This document shows, one piece after another, positions 1 through 14,419 of a stretch of DNA of 64,000 nucleotides. This DNA is from Cellvibrio sp. OA-2007 (GTDB lineage Bacteria > Pseudomonadota > Gammaproteobacteria > Pseudomonadales > Cellvibrionaceae), in assembly GCF_000953825.1 (NCBI RefSeq), contig NZ_BBUL01000093.1, positions 1 to 64,000 on the forward strand, given 5' to 3'. Position numbers and translations under genes: made by a program. The notes under the pieces are model-generated. The model was not told where the DNA came from and did no database searches. It was given only the letters and a program-made list of their open reading frames with translations. Positions within the stretch are counted from its first letter, which is position 1; each line of letters begins with the position of its first letter.

Positions 1-371
1 TTCACGCCGTTAGTGGTCATGCTGGCGGGCGTTAGAAAATATTCGCCGTTCATGGTGCTCAACACCTGCCCCATACCACGTACGCTCACCACACTGCCCT
101 GGCCGCCGCTGCGCTGGATTTGAATACCGGTAATACGCTGGAGCGAGTCGGCGATGGTGGTGTCGGGCAGTTTGCCTATATCTTCGGCGGCGACTGAATC
201 GACGATTTGTGCTGAGTTGCGTTTTACATCAATCGCTCTTTCCTGTGCGCCGCGCACACCGGTGACAACAACTTCTTCGACCGAATCGCCCTGTGCATAA
301 GCACCAGTAGCGAAGCAGGTGGTAATAAGCGTGGCGAGTAGGGTTTTATTAAAATTCGTAGACGTTTTCAT
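1..371 (-). CDS. TonB-dependent receptor, N-terminal part (runs off the window)
   Basis: Only the first 123 codons are inside the window; the gene continues beyond base 1. The start is the ATG at 369-371 and the first ~26 residues form a signal peptide ending in AYAQ. The sequence EEVVVTGVRGAQERA and then EDIGKLPD..IADSLQRITGIQIQR is the typical plug-domain entry of the large TonB-dependent receptors (TonB-Xanth-Caul type) that import oligosaccharides in Cellvibrio and Xanthomonas. It lies downstream of a mannanase gene on the same strand and has a LacI-type operator 134 bases before its start, so uptake of mannan-derived oligosaccharides is a reasonable inference. The substrate cannot be read from this part. 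Confidence 0.9.
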   Translation of the reverse strand, partial: MKTSTNFNKTLLATLITTCFATGAYAQGDSVEEVVVTGVRGAQERAIDVKRNSAQIVDSVAAEDIGKLPDTTIADSLQRITGIQIQRSGGQGSVVSVRGMGQVLSTMNGEYFLTPASMTTNGV

Positions 372-900
372 AGCCGATAGTGGGTCCTTTAGTTTTGACT
401 TCTTATGTGTGTGTTCCCTGTATTTTAAGCTTATACAGGCTCTCAGTCAGAACCTTGGCACCGCGTGGAGGCACCGTTCAATTCTGAGAGACTGGTGAAC
501 CTAGTGCAACCGTTTACATATACGAGCATGCCCCAGCGAGTTAACGATAACATATATATTTCATATATTAAAAAGATTAGGTTTTTTTATTATTAAAATT
601 GTTTGTGGTGTGCATAAAATTCATATAACACTGATTAGTAAAGACTTTAATTTATTGTGTGCCACTAGACTTGATTTTTATTAGGAAAGGATAGCGAAAA
701 AATTTAAATCTTCGTAACCTCGAAAATTTGTACACGGTTACTTTTTACATTGAGTGACCCTAGTATCAGGGGACGCAAAAGGTATACTTTCACCCTGTCG
801 TCGCACTGTTTGTGAAGCCCTCAGCATAGAACCACTGTCATCGCCTGAAGTGAAGGCAATATAGAGCACGGCACAACCAATTAATTTCTCGGAATGATAA
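372..900. promoter_or_regulatory. AT-rich upstream region of the TonB receptor gene
   Basis: No coding region is supported here. It is the 5' region of the minus-strand TonB receptor. It contains one perfect LacI-family operator match (505-518) and one weaker 12/14 match at 729-742. Confidence 0.5.
505..518. promoter_or_regulatory. LacI-family operator upstream of TonB receptor
   Basis: TGCAACCGTTTACA fits the LacI/GalR-family palindrome TGNAANCGNTTNCA at every defined position, including the central CG. It sits 134 bases upstream of the receptor ATG. The same pattern occurs before the neighbouring mannanase gene (6555-6568), suggesting a common sugar-responsive repressor encoded outside the window. 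Confidence 0.65.
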
Positions 901-940
901 AAACAAAAAGCCCCCGAGCGGCTTTAGCCGACCCGAGGGA
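901..940 (-). terminator. Rho-independent terminator of the mannanase gene
   Basis: Read on the minus strand, a GC-rich stem of eleven base pairs with one bulged T and a TAAA loop is followed by CTTTTTGTTT. It lies 35 bases past the mannanase stop codon. Confidence 0.8.
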
Positions 941-974
941 AGAGAGAGCGAGGAGAGCGCTCAGAGTTACATCA

Positions 975-3900
975 CTATTGATTTAAGCCCTGATACAGTT
1001 CCGAATACTGCTTGATGATGTCGCAGCTGGGTTTATGCCAAGTCATGTGGATGACCTTGCCTTCAACATTGTTGCCCGGTGCGCCCAGCTTGCTAAGGCT
1101 GAGCTCAGCTTCATTAATTGCGCAGTAGAACTGGAAGCCGTCATTATTAGCTGTCCAGCCACCGCTGGCTTCACCATAGGGGCCAGAACACCACTGACAA
1201 CCGCCCAGGGGCGTCATGCCATTACCCCACTCTAATCCGGACAGCTGCCAGGTAAGCATGCCGCCAATAGCATCGCGCTGGGCCCAAGCTTTGGCGTACC
1301 AGCTGGCAAAGTATTGGTCGCGCTGCTGCAGCGACACCTTCACAAAACTATCCACCAGTGCTTGATCAGTAAAGCTGGTGAGTTTTACCGTTTGCGCGCC
1401 AGTGGTGCGCTGCTCGTTAACCGGCCAACTGAACTCACCGATATAAGCTGGCTTGCCCAAATCGCGCGCCAAGTCCGCCAGCAGGTCAAAGTTGCCGAGG
1501 GTTTGGGCATCGGTTAAACCCCACCAAGTGGGATAAAGGTGAGCACTAATAGCGTCGATATTTGGGTCGCTATTGACGGCGCGCAGGTTGGCGTAAGTAT
1601 CGCCCGCCCCTGCAGCACCAAAGGACGACTCCATACCGATAGAGACCAACTGCTGTGGCGCAATGGATTTTATGTGCGCGGCAATGCTGCTCACCCAAGC
1701 GCTAAAACCGGGCAAGTCGCTGCCAATACGCGGCTCATTGGCCAACTCCCACATCATGATGGTTGGATCATTTTTGTAGGCCACACCGGTGATGCTGTTG
1801 GTGTGATTGAGCAGATTGGTGATAAAGGCCTTGTAGATCTCGCGCCCGGGCGCACTGGCATAACCACCGTAGCTGTCGATATTGCCGAAGTAGTTCCAGT
1901 GATCGCCAAGCGACAACACCAAGCGAATACCGCGCTCCTCGGCCAGAGCCACATAATTATCAAACAGTTGGAAACTGCGGTCGATAATCGCTTGCTCCTG
2001 CGCCGTGCGCTGCGCCGCTGGCTTGCTCAAAATGAACGAGCCATTGGATTTCATATTGATGCAGACGCCGTCGTGGGTTTTGGTGTCGTTGCAGAACATC
2101 CAGGTGCGCACTACATTCATTTTTAAATGGGCGGCGCGCTCAAAGAAGTCCTTAGCCATAGCCTCGGGCTTGTACATCAAGTAATACTGATTAGAGCCGT
2201 TGAAGTAGAAGGGTTTATTGCCCAACACAAACTGCGTGCCCGAGCGCTCTACAAACTGCTTATTGGCCGATGCCCCCACTTGCAAGCGCAGGCTTTGGCT
2301 TAGGCCAGTGCCCTCAACTCCGAACTGCAGGCGATAAATGCCATCGCCCTGATTGGGGATAACCAAGGGGCTAGCACCGCTATAACTCACCGGCGCTGCA
2401 CCATTGAGGCTGTAGCTCAGTTTGCCCGCACCTTGTTTAAGGTAACTGATTTGAATATTGCTACCCGAAGCCAGCTGCGCAAAGTTCGCCGGGCTTTGAA
2501 TTTGCAAGCCGCCCAACAACTCCACCTTAAGGCTATGCACAGTCATGTAGCCCCAATCACCGGCGTTCACTTGAATACCGGCGCTGTGGCTGCCCTGACT
2601 TAGCATCAGAGTACGCACACTGGTCGCTGGGGTTGCTGAATTAAAGTTAGTGGCAACACCGGCACCGTCCACCATGAGCGTATTGACCTTACTGCCGCTG
2701 GGCGTGCTCCAGGTCAGGGTCAAGCGATACTCCCCCGCCATAGGTGCATTAAATGTCCAGATGGCACCACTGCCCGCAGCTTTTAATTCCACCGCATCGC
2801 CAGATAACACTGCCGCGCCCTGCAAGCTGGCGCTATTGGCGGCGTAATTCCAAGTCATCTCCGCAGGTGCCACACTGGTGGCGACCGAGCTAGTAGTTTG
2901 CACACTGCTAGAACTGACAAGGGACGACGCAGGCTGGCTCGACGCTGCCACAGAGCTGGGCACAGATGAACTTGACGCTTGTGATGTGGCCGCTGCCGAG
3001 CTAGTCGAGCCGCCAAAATAACTCGTCGCTAAAGGTACTACCGTCGCTTTAATACCGGTTGCGGAATCGACTATATCCACCCCGTGTTGCGTCAGTGAAT
3101 AACTGTCGTAGGCGTTGGACATATCGAGCATGGTTTCACCCGCGCCATTGCCGCGCCAAGACCAGGCGATCCATCCCATAGATACGCTTTGCGCTTTTTG
3201 CATCAAGTAGAAATGATCAGTGGTTTTGCCACCCGCAGTGTGATTGCTACGCCCAAACTCGCCCACTACCACCGGCAACTGGGTATTGATTAGATACTGC
3301 ATGCGCGTATCTATCTCTGCCGTGTTTGACCACTCGTAATAGCCATGAACCGAGAAGATGGTGTTGCGCAGTGGGTCTGCCGCCAGCACGCTGGCACCAC
3401 CATCAAAGAAGTAAGGGTTGTGCCCCCAATCGCCCGCGTCTATAACCAAGGGCGCAGTGATGCCATTGTCGCGCAGGGTTTTTACCGCTTTGGCGTAGGT
3501 GTCGCGCCATACTGTTTTATCCTGACCCCATTCATTGGCGATATTAATTAGCAAGTATGGTTGGTATTTAGGGTCTTTAATCACCGCACCCCAGGTTTCC
3601 GTCCACTTACTGACGGCGTCATCGCCACCGACCACACCGTTATCAATCGCATTGGCATCGCTGCCACCAGTGATTTGATAGGTGCCGCGGCTGCCGTTCT
3701 CCCAATACATCGGCATAGCCAGCATGCGGTTGCGCACAATCTCATCGAGCGCGCTGCGCAACTGGGCGGCAGTGGTATCGGCGCGCAGTTGCAAGCGCAC
3801 CACATTGGCACCGGTTTTAGCGATTTGTGCGATGGAAGCAAACTTAACCGCCGGGTCGTCACCGTATTGCAGGTTCACCCCACGCATGACCAGCGGCGTA

Positions 3901-6332
3901 CCATCGGCTAGGTAGATAGAGCGGCCACTCACATAGATAGTTTGACGGCTGGGCGCGGAGCTGGCGGTAGAACTGCTGCTATTAGGCGCGCTGGACGCAG
4001 CGCCCATACCTGTACCATCGACGGTGTTTTTCTGGGTTTGCAGCAAATTACTGTAGGCACCGATTTTGGCGCAGACCACATCGGTGCGCGCACTGTTGCA
4101 GTAGACGGTAAACCTGTCCCAGTCGTTGTACAGGCCATCGCAAGTCCAACTGTTCAGGTTGGCGGCAGCACCCGGGTGTGACGTACGGCTGGCCTCATAC
4201 TCAGGCGCAAAACAGTATTTGGTTTTGTTGCCGTAGTCGGTTTTGCCGTTGTAAGTCCAGGGCTGCATATTGTCACGCTCCCAGTAATCTAAGCCCGACA
4301 ACAACCAGAGCATGGCGCCATCCAACTGCTTGGCATCCATAAGGTCGTACCACTCGCCATAAATGCGCTCGCGCTCAGCCTGGCTTACACCCTGACGGCC
4401 ATCCCAAAACTGATAGTCGTACATGGCCGCCTGATCAAACTCCACCATGCGCCCAAACTCACCCAAATAAACCGGCTTGCCACCGGCGCGGGCTTTATCG
4501 ATACGGCTGCTGATATAGCTTTTGGCTTCCGCTTCATTCAAGCCCCACCAATCTGGGTAGAGGTGAAAGGAGTAGGCATCAATCGCGGGATAGCTGTGAT
4601 CGGCAATGAAGTCAGTACCCTCTTTATAGGCTAAAGGAATGGCCGCTTCGGCTTGGGCGCGAGTTTGCCCCTGTGCCACTAGCTCATTGCGCTGACGCTC
4701 TTCCCAAGGATTGGACGCATCAAACCCTTCCATACCGGTAGAGACCAAATGCTTGCCATCGATAGACTTAATATAGCGTGAGGTCTCGTCGATCCAGCGG
4801 TGAAATGCAGCGCGCTGCTCTTCCGTACAACCGACGCAGCGCGGCTCGTTGGCCAGCTCCCACATCATGATGCTGGGGTCATCTTTGTACTTAATGCCAG
4901 TCAAGTGGTTGGTACGATTCAACACATAGCTGATGTATTCGCGGAACCGCTGTTGCGACCAGGCATCACCATAGAATTTCGCCGCCGCTTCAACGATGAA
5001 CTCATGGTCTTCTTTACCTTGCGGGCCATTGACTATAGCGGCGTTGTAATCTGCCACTGCCTTGTTGATACCATCCGGCGTAGTGGCGGTGAAACGCTCG
5101 GCATAACGCTGTTTGATCTCCACGCGATAGCATTGCAATGCTTCGTCGGCATCGGTGGTTTGACCATCGCCATCCACATCGATATTAGGTGACCAGGCCG
5201 CGTATTGGCACATGCCGCCAAAACCGCCCCAGTAGTTGGTCAGCGGCAAAATCGACTTGATGCCACGATCGCCCGCCTCCTTCAGCATAAAGTCCAACTG
5301 CTTAAAGCCCACTTCATTGAAGCGTGCCGCTGCGGTCACTTTATCGGGGTTGTTAGGCTGGAAGCAGTGACTATCGGACTGGGTGCCAGTGCCAAAAATC
5401 GGGTCCCAATAACCGGTGTAGTCGGTGCTGCCATAGTATTCACCATCGCAGAAACCCCAAGCACGCAAACTGGTCATGCCCAGATTTTTCATGTCACCCA
5501 AAACATCCAACACCATTTTGGGATGTTTGTAGAACATGAAGTATTGATTGGAACCGTTGGTGTAAAAGTATTTGCCATCCAGACCAAAGTGGCCATCGGG
5601 CGTGGCGTACACAAAGCCCGGGGTTTTCGGTGTGCCGATGACCGAGCTAAGGCTAGACGAGCTCACCGTACCAAGACTTGAGCTTTTCAATGAACTGGCA
5701 ACTGAACTTGTCACCGAGCTTTTTATCGAGCTGGCAACTGAGCTATTAACCGAACTTTTTATTGAGCTAGCCACCGCGCTAGAGGCGGCACCCACTACGC
5801 CATAGGGCGCGGGCTGCTCGCTACAGGTGGTGCGTGCAATACAACTTTTTTGCTCTTCCCAACCCCAGCCCGACGGCGTGGCTTTACATAAGGGATAAAG
5901 ATTGCCGTACCAATTACATTGGGCGGCAGTTGCCAACGAAGAGCCTGTGCCAGATGAGGTGGCGGCTGACGAAGGCGCTATGGATGAGGCTGCCAGGGAT
6001 GAAAGTGCTGCCGATGAAAAGGCGATAGATGAACGCACCGACGAAGACTGCGCACTTGAGGAGGGTACCAGTGAAGCTGCCGAGCTCTGGCTTGAGCTAC
6101 AAGCCTGCAGCCACTGCCACGCATCCCACTCATCGGCTTTATTGGGTGTTTTACCCGGGTTAATCCAATAGCGCGCTTTATACTCATCACCTTGATAGGT
6201 GATCACCTCGCCCCCTTTGTAGGTTGTACTGGAAGACCACACCACCGAAGTGCATTGCCCGGCTAATGCGGGAAGCGCACTCGCCATAGCAAAAACCCCG
6301 ACAATGGAGGAACACAATTGAAGTTTCTTCAT
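975..6332 (-). CDS. Secreted multimodular mannanase with three GH5 catalytic domains
   Basis: Predicted secreted endo-beta-1,4-mannanase of 1785 residues. Order: signal peptide (1-24), CBM5/12 chitin/cellulose-type binding module (about 26-78), Ser-rich linker, CBM10 (about 138-170, CNWYG..), long Ser-rich linker (180-232), GH5 domain 1 (about 236-770), short Ser linker, GH5 domain 2 (about 797-1105), Ser linker (1109-1153), CBM35-like beta-sandwich (about 1158-1274), Ig-like segment (1275-1354), GH5 domain 3 (about 1357-1785). All three domains keep both catalytic glutamates: WELANEPR E497 and GEFGR E625; IANEWG E934 and GEFGR E1025; WELANEPR E1533 and GEFSW E1633. Domains 1 and 3 resemble GH5 subfamily 7 and domain 2 resembles subfamily 8; these subfamily calls are from memory of family motifs. 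Domain 1 carries a calcium-loop-like insert (DVDGDGQTTDAD, 385-396). Usual mannanases have one catalytic domain. Confidence 0.88.
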   Translation of the reverse strand: MKKLQLCSSIVGVFAMASALPALAGQCTSVVWSSSTTYKGGEVITYQGDEYKARYWINPGKTPNKADEWDAWQWLQACSSSQSSAASLVPSSSAQSSSVRSSIAFSSAALSSLAASSIAPSSAATSSGTGSSLATAAQCNWYGNLYPLCKATPSGWGWEEQKSCIARTTCSEQPAPYGVVGAASSAVASSIKSSVNSSVASSIKSSVTSSVASSLKSSSLGTVSSSSLSSVIGTPKTPGFVYATPDGHFGLDGKYFYTNGSNQYFMFYKHPKMVLDVLGDMKNLGMTSLRAWGFCDGEYYGSTDYTGYWDPIFGTGTQSDSHCFQPNNPDKVTAAARFNEVGFKQLDFMLKEAGDRGIKSILPLTNYWGGFGGMCQYAAWSPNIDVDGDGQTTDADEALQCYRVEIKQRYAERFTATTPDGINKAVADYNAAIVNGPQGKEDHEFIVEAAAKFYGDAWSQQRFREYISYVLNRTNHLTGIKYKDDPSIMMWELANEPRCVGCTEEQRAAFHRWIDETSRYIKSIDGKHLVSTGMEGFDASNPWEERQRNELVAQGQTRAQAEAAIPLAYKEGTDFIADHSYPAIDAYSFHLYPDWWGLNEAEAKSYISSRIDKARAGGKPVYLGEFGRMVEFDQAAMYDYQFWDGRQGVSQAERERIYGEWYDLMDAKQLDGAMLWLLSGLDYWERDNMQPWTYNGKTDYGNKTKYCFAPEYEASRTSHPGAAANLNSWTCDGLYNDWDRFTVYCNSARTDVVCAKIGAYSNLLQTQKNTVDGTGMGAASSAPNSSSSTASSAPSRQTIYVSGRSIYLADGTPLVMRGVNLQYGDDPAVKFASIAQIAKTGANVVRLQLRADTTAAQLRSALDEIVRNRMLAMPMYWENGSRGTYQITGGSDANAIDNGVVGGDDAVSKWTETWGAVIKDPKYQPYLLINIANEWGQDKTVWRDTYAKAVKTLRDNGITAPLVIDAGDWGHNPYFFDGGASVLAADPLRNTIFSVHGYYEWSNTAEIDTRMQYLINTQLPVVVGEFGRSNHTAGGKTTDHFYLMQKAQSVSMGWIAWSWRGNGAGETMLDMSNAYDSYSLTQHGVDIVDSATGIKATVVPLATSYFGGSTSSAAATSQASSSSVPSSVAASSQPASSLVSSSSVQTTSSVATSVAPAEMTWNYAANSASLQGAAVLSGDAVELKAAGSGAIWTFNAPMAGEYRLTLTWSTPSGSKVNTLMVDGAGVATNFNSATPATSVRTLMLSQGSHSAGIQVNAGDWGYMTVHSLKVELLGGLQIQSPANFAQLASGSNIQISYLKQGAGKLSYSLNGAAPVSYSGASPLVIPNQGDGIYRLQFGVEGTGLSQSLRLQVGASANKQFVERSGTQFVLGNKPFYFNGSNQYYLMYKPEAMAKDFFERAAHLKMNVVRTWMFCNDTKTHDGVCINMKSNGSFILSKPAAQRTAQEQAIIDRSFQLFDNYVALAEERGIRLVLSLGDHWNYFGNIDSYGGYASAPGREIYKAFITNLLNHTNSITGVAYKNDPTIMMWELANEPRIGSDLPGFSAWVSSIAAHIKSIAPQQLVSIGMESSFGAAGAGDTYANLRAVNSDPNIDAISAHLYPTWWGLTDAQTLGNFDLLADLARDLGKPAYIGEFSWPVNEQRTTGAQTVKLTSFTDQALVDSFVKVSLQQRDQYFASWYAKAWAQRDAIGGMLTWQLSGLEWGNGMTPLGGCQWCSGPYGEASGGWTANNDGFQFYCAINEAELSLSKLGAPGNNVEGKVIHMTWHKPSCDIIKQYSELYQGLNQ

Positions 6333-6954
6333 AAGAATGCCTGCTAGTTGATTTTAGAATTATCGTTACCAGCGCAAGTACTGCCCTAACACAACCCAGC
6401 CCACGCCCTAAAGCACGAGCCGCATAATTGTTATGTATTAACTTGCTTTCTCTCTTAAGCGCACTTCCTAAGCGCAATATTATGTTTCCCTTGAAGACCA
6501 ACTCACCTGATTGAGAAGGGAGAGCTGAATGCAATGCTGCGATTAAAGAGTACATGTAATCGATTACACTAACAACAGGAATAAGCAGAATTGAATCTCA
6601 AAAATAGCGTTAACATTAGTATGATGTATCGCAAAACACCTTTTTATGTAGGAAGATAAAACAATCAAGTAACCAATTACATCGCACCTCATCAAAAAGA
6701 CAACGCTCGCGTGGCGCAATCATCGTTCTAACCCTAGCAATGAGATTCAGGTTTGCAGCAGTAGTGCAACAACTGCGATTGATAACATGCAGATACTCAA
6801 GTCAGTAAGTGTAGATTTAAGTCGCATCGAACCGATAGATGCCAAAGACGGCGTGCCGCCGCTGGACTTAGATCATCGATTGGGCCCTTTTTGCTTTACT
6901 AATACGAGGGTGCAATGAACAAATGGAAGCGGAGAATGTTTCGCTGAGGCACGC
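6333..6954. promoter_or_regulatory. Upstream region of the mannanase gene
   Basis: AT-rich intergenic region with no supported gene. It contains the perfect LacI-type palindrome at 6555-6568 and a weaker 12/14 match at 6668-6681. The part from about 6720 onward shows nothing recognisable before the hemN remnant begins. Confidence 0.4.
6555..6568. promoter_or_regulatory. LacI-family operator upstream of mannanase
   Basis: TGTAATCGATTACA is a perfect 14-base palindrome and fits TGNAANCGNTTNCA at every position. It lies 222 bases upstream of the mannanase start codon. It pairs with the operator before the adjacent TonB receptor. Confidence 0.7.
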
Positions 6955-8031
6955 ATAGCGCCAAGCTAACCTACCTTAAAGGCCCACGCATTAACTTTGG
7001 AACAATTAGGGAGCAGATCCGATGCCATCAATTTATGATCAATACACTTGAACATTCGTTATAATTTAAGTCTGCTCGGTACTTTGTTGATTTGAATAAA
7101 AGAAAATCGCTTAGAAGAGGCGTAGATGTATACCAAAAATTGTGCTTAATGTAGGAAAAAAATCGAGTAAGCCTTTATGCTTGGCCAGTGGGTGTGCAGG
7201 ATTTTGATTCCCAAGTTCAAAAAGCAGTAAATCGTTATAACAGTGTTGAAGATGTAAGCACCTTGGTAAAAGCACTACGTCAACAAGACTATCGCTCGAT
7301 CAGTATGGATTTAATTTATGGCCTGCCAATGCAAACTTTGAGCAGTGTCGGTGAAACATTAAATAGAGTGATAGAACTTTCCCCCGACCGCTTGTCATTA
7401 TTTAATTAGGCCCATATGCCGCATCTTTTTAAGAGCCAGCAATTAATTAGCGAGCGTGATCTCCCCCTCAGCAGAGCAAAAACTTGAACTCCTGTATATG
7501 GCGATAGAGCGGTTACAGGGCGCTGGATATGTTTATGTTGGCATGGATCATTTCGCAAAACCGGATGATAGTTTGGTACAAGCACAAAGAGCAGGAAAGT
7601 TACAACGAAATTTTCAGGGCTACCCCACTCATGGCGATTGCGATTTGCTCTCTTTTGGAGCTTCTGAGATTGGCGCATTCGGCAATGTCTATATACAAAA
7701 TGCTAAGCGCGTTGAACATTATCAAAAATCGATTGACTCGGGTGCAATTCCTTTTAATAAAGGTATTGAATTAACCAGCGAAGATCTTTTGCGGCGGTTT
7801 GTAATTAATCAGTTAATTTGTCATTTCAATTTGAATTTTGCTGCTGTTGATAGTGCATTTTGCCGGGATATGCGCACTCATTTTGCTAAAGAATTATCGC
7901 AACTAAAGCTAATGATTGATGATGGAATTGACGTTCTCAATGCGGGGCGGTTGCTTATTCGGAGAATTTGTATGGTGGTTGATGAGTATCTTAATAATGC
8001 ATCATCAATTCGTTACTCCAAGGTAATGTAG
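6955..8031 (+). pseudogene. hemN: Degraded hemN (oxygen-independent coproporphyrinogen III oxidase) remnant
   Basis: The readable C-terminal two thirds match HemN, the radical SAM enzyme of anaerobic haem synthesis: GVQDFDSQVQKAVNR, SMDLIYGLPMQT, LSPDRLSLFN, YVGMDHFAKPDD, RNFQGYPTHGDCDL, QLICHFNLNF and LLIRRICMVVDEYL. The gene is broken. The Tyr codon after LSLFN has become TAG (7407-7409), and about 45 bases later a C run in ATCTCCCCCTC carries a frameshift before SAEQKLELLYMAIERL. A 15-base insertion (YAWPV) splits SL from GVQDF. Before 7160 only fragments such as TYLK..LTLEQL survive. The N-terminal radical SAM CxxxCxxC region is absent, so no function is expected. Confidence 0.82.
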
Positions 8032-8087
8032 TCGGTAATTTTTTGGGGTAGATTTTGAGCAGGTAGTGTAATAGTGATTGGATTGCA

Positions 8088-8384
8088 CTACCCGCTCAAG
8101 GTTGTTGACTTAGGTGTGTCCACTAGAGTTTGGAAGTCCACGTTTAATTTGGAATGGCTTTGATATTGCGCAATCCGCACTGAAGACACAGTTTCAGTAA
8201 CGTCATGCGGCAGCAAAGTTTCTGCGGCAATGTTAAATACATACTGCGGGGTCAGTTCATCGGTTAAACGTAACTTCAACTGAAATACCAAATCATGCCG
8301 TAATACTCTACGTAACGCATTTTTAGACGAAGACACTATTGCCATTGCTGCATCAATATATTTCTTTGGATCGGATCTCTTCAA
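8088..8384 (-). CDS. Hypothetical short ORF, possibly frameshifted
   Basis: A 98-codon open frame starting only with TTG, in the decayed stretch between the hemN remnant and srkA. I do not recognise it. An ATG at 8401-8403 in another frame opens MKLRWDLEEIRSK and then hits a stop. Skipping one base near the A run at about 8367 would join it to the KYIDAAMAIVSSSKNALRR frame. This suggests a frameshifted remnant rather than a working gene. Low confidence that any protein is made. Confidence 0.3.
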   Translation of the reverse strand: MKRSDPKKYIDAAMAIVSSSKNALRRVLRHDLVFQLKLRLTDELTPQYVFNIAAETLLPHDVTETVSSVRIAQYQSHSKLNVDFQTLVDTPKSTTLSG

Positions 8385-8403
8385 GATCCCAGCGTAATTT
8401 CAT

Positions 8404-8743
8404 ATGCTGGCAAAATCGGGGTAACGCATCTCTCGCTTGGGTATAGCATTACAGATTATTGTAAAAAATCGGAATCTTGCATAATACTGTCACTCATGGC
8501 GCTTAATGGCTCATGAGTGGCTTTTGCGGTTACATTTTTTGAGGCTTATTCAGATTTTATCGCGTTTGTTTGGCGCCAACTCATTAGCAATCTCCCCCCC
8601 CAGCCCAAATTTGTACACATCTGCCCTGAATAGTTATGTATACATATGCTACTTTTTGTTTAACTAAACACTTTAATTAACAATTAGTTACAGATGTACA
8701 TGTATGATAGCGTTAAGGTTAGTCAGAGAACCGCGTCTACCAA
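8404..8743. other. Gene-free junction before srkA with one hairpin
   Basis: No coding region is supported. At 8491-8519 an 8-base stem (CACTCATG/CATGAGTG) is followed by GCTTTTGCGG, a terminator-like hairpin on the plus strand whose gene is not evident. The last ~25 bases are the damaged 5' part of srkA (codons for ENRVYQ preceded by an in-frame TAG at 8720-8722). Confidence 0.4.
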
Positions 8744-9601
8744 GTGGGGATTGAGGGGGCGAACCCGCTGATTGCCAAGTTTTATCGCCCCGAGCGCTGG
8801 AGCGATGCGCAGATCATTGAAGAACATGAATTCACCCAAGCGCTAAAAGACTTGGAGATTTCGGTAGTGCCTCCTATGGCCGATGACGCGGGCAAAACCC
8901 TGCGCGAATTTCAGGGTTTTCGCTTTGCGCTCTATGCGCGTCAGGGCGGCCATGCGCCCAACTTGGATGACTTTGATGCGCTGCTATCGCTCGGGCGCAC
9001 CCTCGGACGTATCCACGCGCTGGGGCAAGCCCGCCCCTTTGCCCATCGCCCGGCACTAGATATCCAAACCTTTGGCCGCGACAGTTACGATTTTTTAATG
9101 GCGAATGATTTTATCCCCGCCAGTTTGCGCGAGTCTTATCGCACCCTCGGCGCGGATTTGCTCGCTCGCTGCGAAACCCTGTTTAGCCGCGTGGATTACA
9201 CCCCCATCCGCCTGCATGGCGATTGCCATCCGGGCAATATTTTATGGCGCGAAGAGGTGCCGCATTTTGTCGATTTTGACGATGCGCGCATGGGGCCGGC
9301 GATTCAGGATTTGTGGATGCTACTGTCGGGCGAGCGCGAGCAGCAGACGCTGCAACTCGCCGAAGTGCTCGAAGGCTACCGCGAATTTTGCGATTTTGAT
9401 TTGGCCGAGCTGGCGCTGATCGAGGCGCTGCGCAGCCTGCGTATCATGCACTACAGTGCGTGGCTGGCGCGGCGTTGGAACGACCCCGCCTTTCCGCGTC
9501 ACTTCCCCTGGTTTAATACCGAGCGCTATTGGGGCGAACATATTCTGGAGTTACGCGAGCAGCTGGCCGCGCTGAACGAGCCGCCGCTGGTCATTTATTG
9601 A
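8744..9601 (+). CDS. srkA: Stress response kinase A-like (SrkA/YihE), N-terminally truncated
   Basis: Kinase-fold protein of the SrkA/YihE family (APH-like Ser/Thr kinase acting in cell-envelope stress). The catalytic loop HGDCHPGNILW and the metal-binding DFDDARMGP segment are intact, as is the FYRPERW signature near the start. The open frame from a GTG has 285 codons against about 325-330 in the family. Codons immediately upstream still read ENRVYQ, a conserved N-terminal loop, but an in-frame TAG at 8720-8722 ends the homology. About 40 N-terminal residues, including nucleotide-contacting strands, are therefore missing. It is either a pseudogene or a truncated protein. cysE follows 78 bases after the stop. 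Confidence 0.75.
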   Translation: MGIEGANPLIAKFYRPERWSDAQIIEEHEFTQALKDLEISVVPPMADDAGKTLREFQGFRFALYARQGGHAPNLDDFDALLSLGRTLGRIHALGQARPFAHRPALDIQTFGRDSYDFLMANDFIPASLRESYRTLGADLLARCETLFSRVDYTPIRLHGDCHPGNILWREEVPHFVDFDDARMGPAIQDLWMLLSGEREQQTLQLAEVLEGYREFCDFDLAELALIEALRSLRIMHYSAWLARRWNDPAFPRHFPWFNTERYWGEHILELREQLAALNEPPLVIY

Positions 9602-12937: not shown

Positions 12938-14419
12938 TTAATAAGCGGCGGGCACATCTATACCCAGCTCGTCCCACAATTGATCGACACGATCTTTTAC
13001 TGCCTGGTCCATCACAATCGGGGTACCCCACTCGCGGGTAGTTTCGCCCGGCCATTTATTGGTTGCATCAAAACCAATTTTGGAACCTAAGCCAGAAACG
13101 GGTGAGGCAAAGTCGAGATAATCAATTGGGGTGTTTTCGATCATCACCGTATCACGCGCTGGATCCATACGTGTGGTCATCGCCCAGATCACATCGTTCC
13201 AATCCCGCGCGTTGACATCATCGTCAGTGACTATGACAAATTTGGTGTACATAAATTGCCGCAGAAAACTCCACACCCCCATCATCACCCGCTTGGCGTG
13301 ACCGGGGTACTGTTTTTTCATAGTGACCACCGCCATGCGGTAGGAGCAACCTTCCGGCGGCAAATAGAAATCCACAATCTCGGGAAATTGCTTTTGCAAG
13401 ATCGGCACAAACACTTCGTTGAGTGCGACACCGAGAATCGCAGGCTCATCTGGCGGACGGCCAGTGTAGGTGCTGTGATAAATCGGGTCGCGGCGATGGG
13501 TGATGCGCTCCACAGTAAATACCGGAAACTTATCGACCTCATTGTAGTAACCGGTGTGGTCGCCAAACGGGCCTTCGGGCGCTAAGTCATTCGGCGCAAT
13601 ATAACCTTCCAAAATAAACTCAGCGGATGCGGGCACCTGTAAATCATTGCCGATACATTTCACCACTTCGGTTTTATCGCCGCGCAATAATCCGGCAAAA
13701 CCGTATTCCGACAGTGTATCGGGAACTGGTGTGACTGCACCGAGAATGGTCGCAGGGTCAGCACCCAGCGCCACCGCAACAGGGTAATTTTTACCTGGAT
13801 TTTGAAGTTGAAATTCACGGAAATCCAACGCGCCGCCGCGATGGGAAAGCCAGCGCATAATCAACCGGTTTTTACCGATTTTTTGCATGCGGTAGATGCC
13901 GAGATTTTGCCGCTCTTTATGCGGCCCGCGGGTAACCACTAACGGCCAAGTCACTAAAGGGCCTGCATCACCCGGCCAGCAGGTTTGAATTGGCAGCAGA
14001 TCCAAATTTACCGCATCGCCTTCCAGCACCACATCCTGACACTGGGCTTTGCTCAACACCTTGGGAGCCAAATTCAAAACTTGTTTGAAAATCGGCAATT
14101 TATCCCAGGCATCTTTAAAACCCTTAGGCGGCTCCGGCTCTTTTAAAAACGCGAGCAACTTGCCAACCTCACGTAAAGCACTGACCGATTCCTGCCCCAT
14201 TCCCAATGCGACACGTTCGGTTGTGCCGAATAAATTGGCGAGTACGGGAATGTCATAACCTTTGGGATTTTCAAACAACAACGCGGGGCCACCGGCGCGC
14301 AAGGTGCGGTCGCAAATTTCTGTCATTTCCAGATTGGGATCAATTTCTTGTGTGATGCGCTTTAACAAACCGCGACTTTCAAGCAGGGCGATAAAATCGC
14401 GCAGGTCTTTATATTTCAT
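12938..14419 (-). CDS. ubiD: UbiD 4-hydroxy-3-polyprenylbenzoate decarboxylase
   Basis: Prenylated-FMN-dependent decarboxylase of ubiquinone synthesis. 493 residues, matching E. coli UbiD (497). Family features run throughout: [110 protein letters not shown] (with the catalytic acidic residues) and a C-terminal [11 protein letters not shown]. It requires prFMN made by UbiX, which is not in the window. It follows rho on the same strand across a 173-base gap that holds an inverted repeat. Confidence 0.97.

Follow-up and report, generated by a model that had tools for sequence, protein, structure and literature searches.

A probable three-module GH5 mannan enzyme encoded at the end of an island that splits srkA in two Cellvibrio species

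What does a single chain with three GH5 catalytic modules do, and how did its gene come to lie where it does? We address this question in the window, by which we mean the whole stretch of 64,000 nucleotides analysed here (Cellvibrio sp. OA-2007, contig NZ_BBUL01000093.1, positions 1 to 64,000). Our reading, which we hold with high confidence, is that the chain is an exported mannan enzyme with three engines, two GH5_7-type modules flanking a GH5_8-type one, and that its gene lies on a site-specific island that splits srkA. The location of the gene at an island end falls outside what the first-pass annotation of this DNA had considered, and the island is more surprising than the enzyme. The gene and the units of its product are as follows.

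975..6332, minus strand: gene of the three-module GH5 protein, 1785 aa, ATG start, open frame without internal stop
6261..6332, minus strand: putative signal peptide, residues 1-24, judged by eye
6117..6239, minus strand: CBM5/12, residues 32-72, Pfam PF02839
5838..5921, minus strand: CBM10, residues 138-165, Pfam PF02013
4005..5624, minus strand: GH5 module 1, apparent GH5_7 type, residues 237-776, E496/E625
3012..3950, minus strand: GH5 module 2, apparent GH5_8 type, residues 795-1107, E934/E1025
2508..2870, minus strand: CBM35, residues 1155-1275, from Pfam and the nearest solved relative, 2bgo
2226..2507, minus strand: Ig-like beta-sandwich unit, residues 1276-1369, ends placed by eye
978..2240, minus strand: GH5 module 3, apparent GH5_7 type, residues 1365-1785, E1533/E1633

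Within this single frame, Pfam places three separate stretches of PF00150 above cut-off, and both GH5 catalytic glutamates are present in every module; domain search and residue check thus agree with the first-pass annotation, which had described three GH5 domains with intact glutamates. Its positions were correct for five of the six glutamates (E625, E934/E1025 and E1533/E1633) and off by one for the first, residue 497 being a proline and the glutamate E496. An Arg, a His and a Trp are expected close to the GH5 active site, and each of the three modules has them in comparable positions; in modules 1 and 3, the Arg, the Asn-Glu, the His and the second Glu are invariant across an alignment of 14 rows. 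One module could nevertheless have ceased to be catalytic and now serve for binding, and inactive GH5 modules are known (PMC3526467, excerpted text). Such a loss is, however, improbable here, as all three modules retain the two glutamates together with the three further residues looked for, and each is probably a working engine.

Besides the catalytic modules, CBM5/12, CBM10 and CBM35-like modules had been proposed, and all three exceed their Pfam cut-offs. The CBM_35 match (residues 1161-1273) scores 77.1 bits against a cut-off of 28 and the CBM_10 match (138-165) 26.2 bits against 23, while the CBM_5_12 match (32-72) is barely above threshold because it scores 26.6 bits against 26.2. The nearest solved relative of the CBM35, 2bgo, is labelled endo-b1,4-mannanase 5C. 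The Ig-like unit has no Pfam match at residues 1276-1369; it is 39-64% conserved among relatives, and its strands appear in the structure model. We thus count seven folded units, in the order CBM5/12, CBM10, GH5, GH5, CBM35, Ig-like and GH5, close to the eight or so first suggested. NCBIfam names no mannanase in the 1785-aa protein and gives one weak beta-glucuronidase match. A search of the window genome's own contigs returned 18 PF00150 matches, 16 of them above cut-off, with three lying within the 1785-aa frame.

Ser-rich stretches occur at residues 79-104, 106-138, 178-239, 777-799 and 1107-1157, and an assembly error could have fused separate mannanase genes across such repeats, particularly in a draft genome of 97 contigs and for a gene 975 bases off a contig end. 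The one-contig genome of a second species (G014), on the other hand, has one open frame for a 1785-aa protein that is identical, the gene DNA differing by a single silent base (window 1056). An assembly error, which the first-pass annotation had itself put forward as a concern, is excluded because a complete second-species genome encodes the identical protein, and we give it next to no probability.

What the three modules may act upon is indicated by their solved relatives. Module 1 has 17 PDB matches, led by 8gf3, 3pz9, 6tn6, 9m20, 4qp0 and 1rh9; 16 are GH5 mannanases or mannosidases and the weakest is GH158, one match carrying the label mannosyl-oligosaccharide glucosidase / Man5A. Module 3 likewise has 17 matches of the same kinds, with a beta-glucuronidase as the weakest. 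Module 2 has 10, six of which are labelled mannanase (1wky, 3jug, 2whj, 2whl, 1bqc and 3wsu); 4y7e and 4fk9 are labelled endoglucanase and cellulose-binding family II, and both are titled mannanase, while 4xzb and 6kdd (CelA and an endoglucanase) match weakly at E 0.0016. The best matches are mannan-active enzymes rather than the cellulases or xylanases that would have refuted the first reading, although these last two are weak cellulase matches. In the excerpted text of PMC3526467, GH5_7 is mannan-cleaving and represented by 1RH9, and GH5_8 consists of mannanases and is represented by 2WHL. The nearest solved relatives of modules 1 and 3 (8gf3, 3pz9, 1rh9 and others) are GH5_7 enzymes and those of module 2 (1wky, 3jug, 2whj, 2whl and 1bqc) are GH5_8 enzymes. 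Based on nearest solved structures, rather than on the CAZy subfamily tree, modules 1 and 3 therefore appear to match GH5_7 best and module 2 GH5_8, in keeping with the earlier view of an outer pair of one subfamily type around an inner domain of another.

Fold searches are led by 8gf3, 1uuq and 1rh9 for the module 1 model and by 1wky, 8gf3 and 1rh9 for the module 2-3 model, both models being of middling quality (mean pLDDT 65.8 and 72.7, respectively; pTM 0.50 for module 2-3, and part of the module 1 model poor). The fold neighbours of module 1 include the exo-mannosidases 1uuq and 4lyp, which brings up the alternative that this module is an exo-acting mannosidase or an oligosaccharide trimmer and that endo and exo action are combined in the chain. 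1uuq is its second-best fold neighbour, and the long insertions that distinguish it from module 3 could close the cleft; however, these insertions are poorly modelled, the mannanase 8gf3 is the best neighbour by sequence as well as by fold, and 1uuq ranks 13th by sequence. Exo action thus seems unlikely to us, though with a real chance of being right, and we continue to read module 1 as a GH5_7-type mannanase module. As a separate observation, one long insertion of module 1 contains DVDGDGQTTDADEA (window 5139-5180, minus strand, residues 385-398), which has the look of a loop for calcium binding and is missing in module 3.

Few proteins contain more than one GH5 engine. In one survey, 7885 proteins held 7908 GH5 domains between them, and 23 GH5 proteins had a second such domain (PMC4928363, excerpted text), which agrees with the rarity that had been claimed for a three-domain chain. 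The literature on three-domain or multicatalytic GH5 mannanases, represented largely by titles and abstracts, gave no description of this chain. Among the matches listed, the full chain occurs in two of 21 genus genomes, the window genome (G000) and G014, and a paralogue lacking modules 1 and 2 in three (these two and G002). At E 1e-20, module 1 matches seven of 144 family genomes: the two identical copies, a strong match in G072, a partial one at 45% in G137 and partial ones at 33-36% in three genus genomes. In a sample of 390 order genomes, the window genome is the sole match for module 1 (E 1e-30) and likewise for module 2 (E 1e-50), G014 not being among the genomes shown.

How the chain was put together can be approached through relatives of its modules. 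That module 3 is a recent copy of module 1, a question for which the first-pass annotation had suggested a comparison, is rejected; the two are 31% identical and therefore not recent duplicates, and each has closer relatives elsewhere. Module 2 aligns with modules 1 and 3 over short stretches only. A scan of genome contigs with module 3 found 11 loci, six at 30-32% and five at 64-70% (two Catenovulum, Aliagarivorans, Neiella and Colwellia), the nearest relative, in Catenovulum, being up to 70% identical. Neiella and Colwellia hold GH5_8-GH5_7 pairs and the two Catenovulum GH26 together with CBM35 and GH5_7, while Pfam finds no second catalytic domain in the Aliagarivorans relative. In G072, a relative of module 1 (50% over 547 columns) is part of a 1253-aa chain, whose gene adjoins that of a 1115-aa protein with a relative of module 3 (61%). 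Most likely, the chain arose by a GH5_7 module joining an older core of GH5_8, CBM35, Ig-like unit and GH5_7; the simplest history, as far as sequence comparison can suggest the order of events, would be that a GH5_8-GH5_7 core gained module 1. A plasmid source for module 3 was considered and rejected, as all 34 matching plasmid records are below 60% identity and the 20 listed are at about 25-30%. Elsewhere on the island, a 496-aa protein (L060:2518-4005, plus strand) is 31% like module 3 and is possibly another GH5; Pfam gives no match for it.

We turn to the surroundings of the gene. Window positions 1 to about 8727 are, by comparison between genomes, the right end of an island of about 101.4 kb inside srkA, with the following features.

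1..8727: island right end, its end fixed by comparison with intact srkA
3..371, minus strand: beginning of a gene for a TonB-dependent receptor, truncated at the window edge; the G014 protein has 1003 aa, Pfam Plug
8711..8721: right end repeat, CGTTAAGGTTA, an imperfect inverse of the left end TACCCTTAACG
8728..9601, plus strand: host srkA 3' fragment, residues 55-345 of the intact srkA of G003, APH family
L147 6499-13502, L161 10087-17077 and L158 4925-11921: trio and replacement srkA at the island left ends of G000, G005 and G009; present in G014 too

First of all, the island is nearly identical in two species. It occupies 3188671-3290096 of contig C1 in G014 (101,426 bases). Window positions 1-8736 show two base differences from G014, and beyond them identity is about 78%. 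Outside the island, the two genomes agree at 67-88% where they match, or at 74-88% for pieces above 1 kb, one of these pieces taking in 228 island bases. Inside it, 29.3 kb of contig C31 match at 99.99%, 30.4 kb of C30 at 99.96%, 3.5 kb of C48 at 99.8% and, as the lowest value, the initial 3.0 kb of C44 at 98.4%, while C14 up to position 13550 has zero differences. In total, about 88 kb were compared and are 98.4-100% identical, the remainder consisting of draft-assembly gaps or the unfetched part of C44. Such a block is extreme for species otherwise 67-88% alike and might reflect mixed DNA in the draft genome. Against this, both block ends join backbone that diverges from G014 within single contigs (C5 near 8728 and C14 near 13550), the stated contamination of the window genome is 0.63%, and diverged islands occupy the same codon in G005 and G009; we consider mixing very improbable and treat the shared island as genuine. 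Left of the island, G000:C14:25876-49126 matches G014:C1:3342114-3307847, which lies to its right in G014, and the flank has therefore been rearranged in one genome.

Second, the site is fixed. srkA is intact in the two genomes examined for this, G002 and G003, where TACGA is followed directly by GAA, and it is split between TACGA and GAA in G014, G000, G005 and G009. The island ends in these four genomes read (T/C)ACCCTTAAC on the left and GTTAAGG(T/G)TA on the right. All four islands bring a full replacement srkA, 90-100% like the copy on the G000 island; likeness to the host fragments is about 56-58%. NCBIfam recognizes the island copy as a serine/threonine protein kinase, PRK11768, for which we take srkA to be the gene name. 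An insertion at a tRNA gene was rejected, ARAGORN finding no tRNA gene in the window and ten other loci.

Third, all four islands contain a gene trio, a tyrosine recombinase of 500-505 aa with frames of 662-680 and 701-740 aa. Pfam finds PF00589 in the 504-aa trio protein, while the 680- and 703-aa ones have no match in Pfam or NCBIfam. Relative to G000, the three are 75, 65 and 64% identical in G005 and 74, 59 and 62% identical in G009. At E 1e-30, the recombinase occurs in five of 144 family genomes, the four with islands plus G006 at 34%. On plasmids, relatives of the three trio proteins appear in 8, 133 and 347 records; these were set aside, all being below 60% identity, as was a phage source of the 703-aa protein, with a single weak match. 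Our literature searches found nothing on a recombinase together with yihE and a genomic island, and among the matches listed for srkA and defence the term 'srkA' was absent. The trio presumably inserts the island at srkA. Alternatively, the block may have spread through homologous recombination of its flanks, which are homologous in G000 and G014. Yet the identity stops at both island borders or within a few bases of them, and exactly the same site is occupied by four islands that carry three different cargoes; flank recombination is thus rather unlikely, and insertion by the trio remains our preferred explanation.

The cargo differs between islands. On the island shared by G014 and G000, Pfam was run on 17 of 48 listed ORFs, mostly picked as sugar- or mobility-like. 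Its matches comprise GH26 with CBM31, GH26 with CBM35, GH43, GH130, a 2-epimerase, an 864-aa frame with CBM10, CBM35 and GH5, an MFS_2 symporter, a TonB receptor plug and a tryptophan halogenase; a 199-aa protein has no Pfam match. By eye, a second GH26-CBM31 gene, more TonB receptors and halogenases, and LacI-type regulators can be added. PADLOC was applied to proteins picked by eye, and its outcomes are model matches rather than proven systems. In the G005 island, eight of nine scanned proteins match (20 ORFs listed), including DruE, type I restriction-modification, MkoA and AbiH, and in the G009 island four of seven (22 ORFs listed), including Avs3a and Dsr1; the five proteins scanned in the G000 island yield a helicase only, with weak matches, so that defence genes may be present among its other proteins. 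Several further observations concern this cargo. L060 11177-13564 and 15913-19998 have near-identical first halves, the first being GH26-type by Pfam, and contigs C31, C48 and C44 break at this gene pair. A 2810-aa frame with internal repeats (G014:C1:3199792-3208221, minus strand) is broken between C14 and C30 in G000. In the window, two short frames within low-GC DNA at 7188-7409 and 7456-8031 (plus strand) are, by eye, candidate pieces of a broken HemN-like gene (oxygen-independent coproporphyrinogen oxidase).

Taken together, these data suggest how the system may work. The chain would be exported and bind plant cell wall material through its CBM5/12, CBM10 and mannan-type CBM35. Its three tethered engines, two different GH5_7-type modules around a GH5_8-type one, would cut beta-1,4-mannan, possibly in synergy, and the oligosaccharide products would be taken up through the neighbouring TonB-dependent receptors. 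The 2-epimerase and the GH130 phosphorylase of the same locus, with roles assigned by family, would then finish the products. For the host, the srkA carried by the island would compensate the loss of the split gene. We also think it probable that the srkA-splitting islands of this genus, which bear putative phage-defence genes in two other genomes, took up a large mannan-use locus with the three-engine chain and that about 101 kb moved whole between species recently, which would make this island the metabolic equivalent of a defence island. An entire polysaccharide-use trait seems to move at once, entering a defined site and bringing its replacement gene along, which makes transfer and benefit measurable. 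Furthermore, the chain permits a direct test of two tethered GH5_7 types plus GH5_8 against the free modules.

The enzyme can be compared with three kinds of known chain. The mannanase 5C type, to which the CBM35 structure 2bgo belongs and which we take to come from Cellvibrio japonicus, has homologues in the genus as open frames of 864 aa (G000 and G014) and 869 aa (G002). These share with the 1785-aa chain the C-terminal half of CBM35, Ig-like unit and GH5_7 (52-53%, 60-64% and 68% identity) as well as N-terminal CBM-like pieces, but contain one catalytic module and lack modules 1 and 2; a single GH5_7 module behind CBM35 marks the 5C type, whereas the present chain has three GH5 modules. 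In Neiella (1333 aa) and Colwellia (1912 aa), the GH5_8-GH5_7 chains are 64-67% identical in modules 2 and 3, with an Ig-like unit between, but have two engines, other CBMs and an N-terminus without a relative of module 1. Catenovulum has GH26-CBM35-Ig-GH5_7 chains (1339 and 1484 aa) that share CBM5/12, CBM10, CBM35, the Ig-like unit and, at 68-70%, module 3, but again have two engines, with GH26 first. For the island, the nearest comparison is with the Gamma-Mobile-Trio (GMT) islands of Mahata et al. 2024, which reportedly are marked by three neighbouring genes, one of them for a tyrosine recombinase, and by a fixed site. Three conserved adjacent genes, one encoding a tyrosine recombinase, are likewise found in G000, G014, G005 and G009, and so is a fixed site. 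One paper describes GMT islands as mobile armouries that hold T6SS toxins and antiphage systems (PMC12039261, excerpted text). The islands of G005 and G009 may resemble them in their cargo, which includes proteins matching defence models, whereas the island of G000 and G014 differs in bearing a mannan-use locus.
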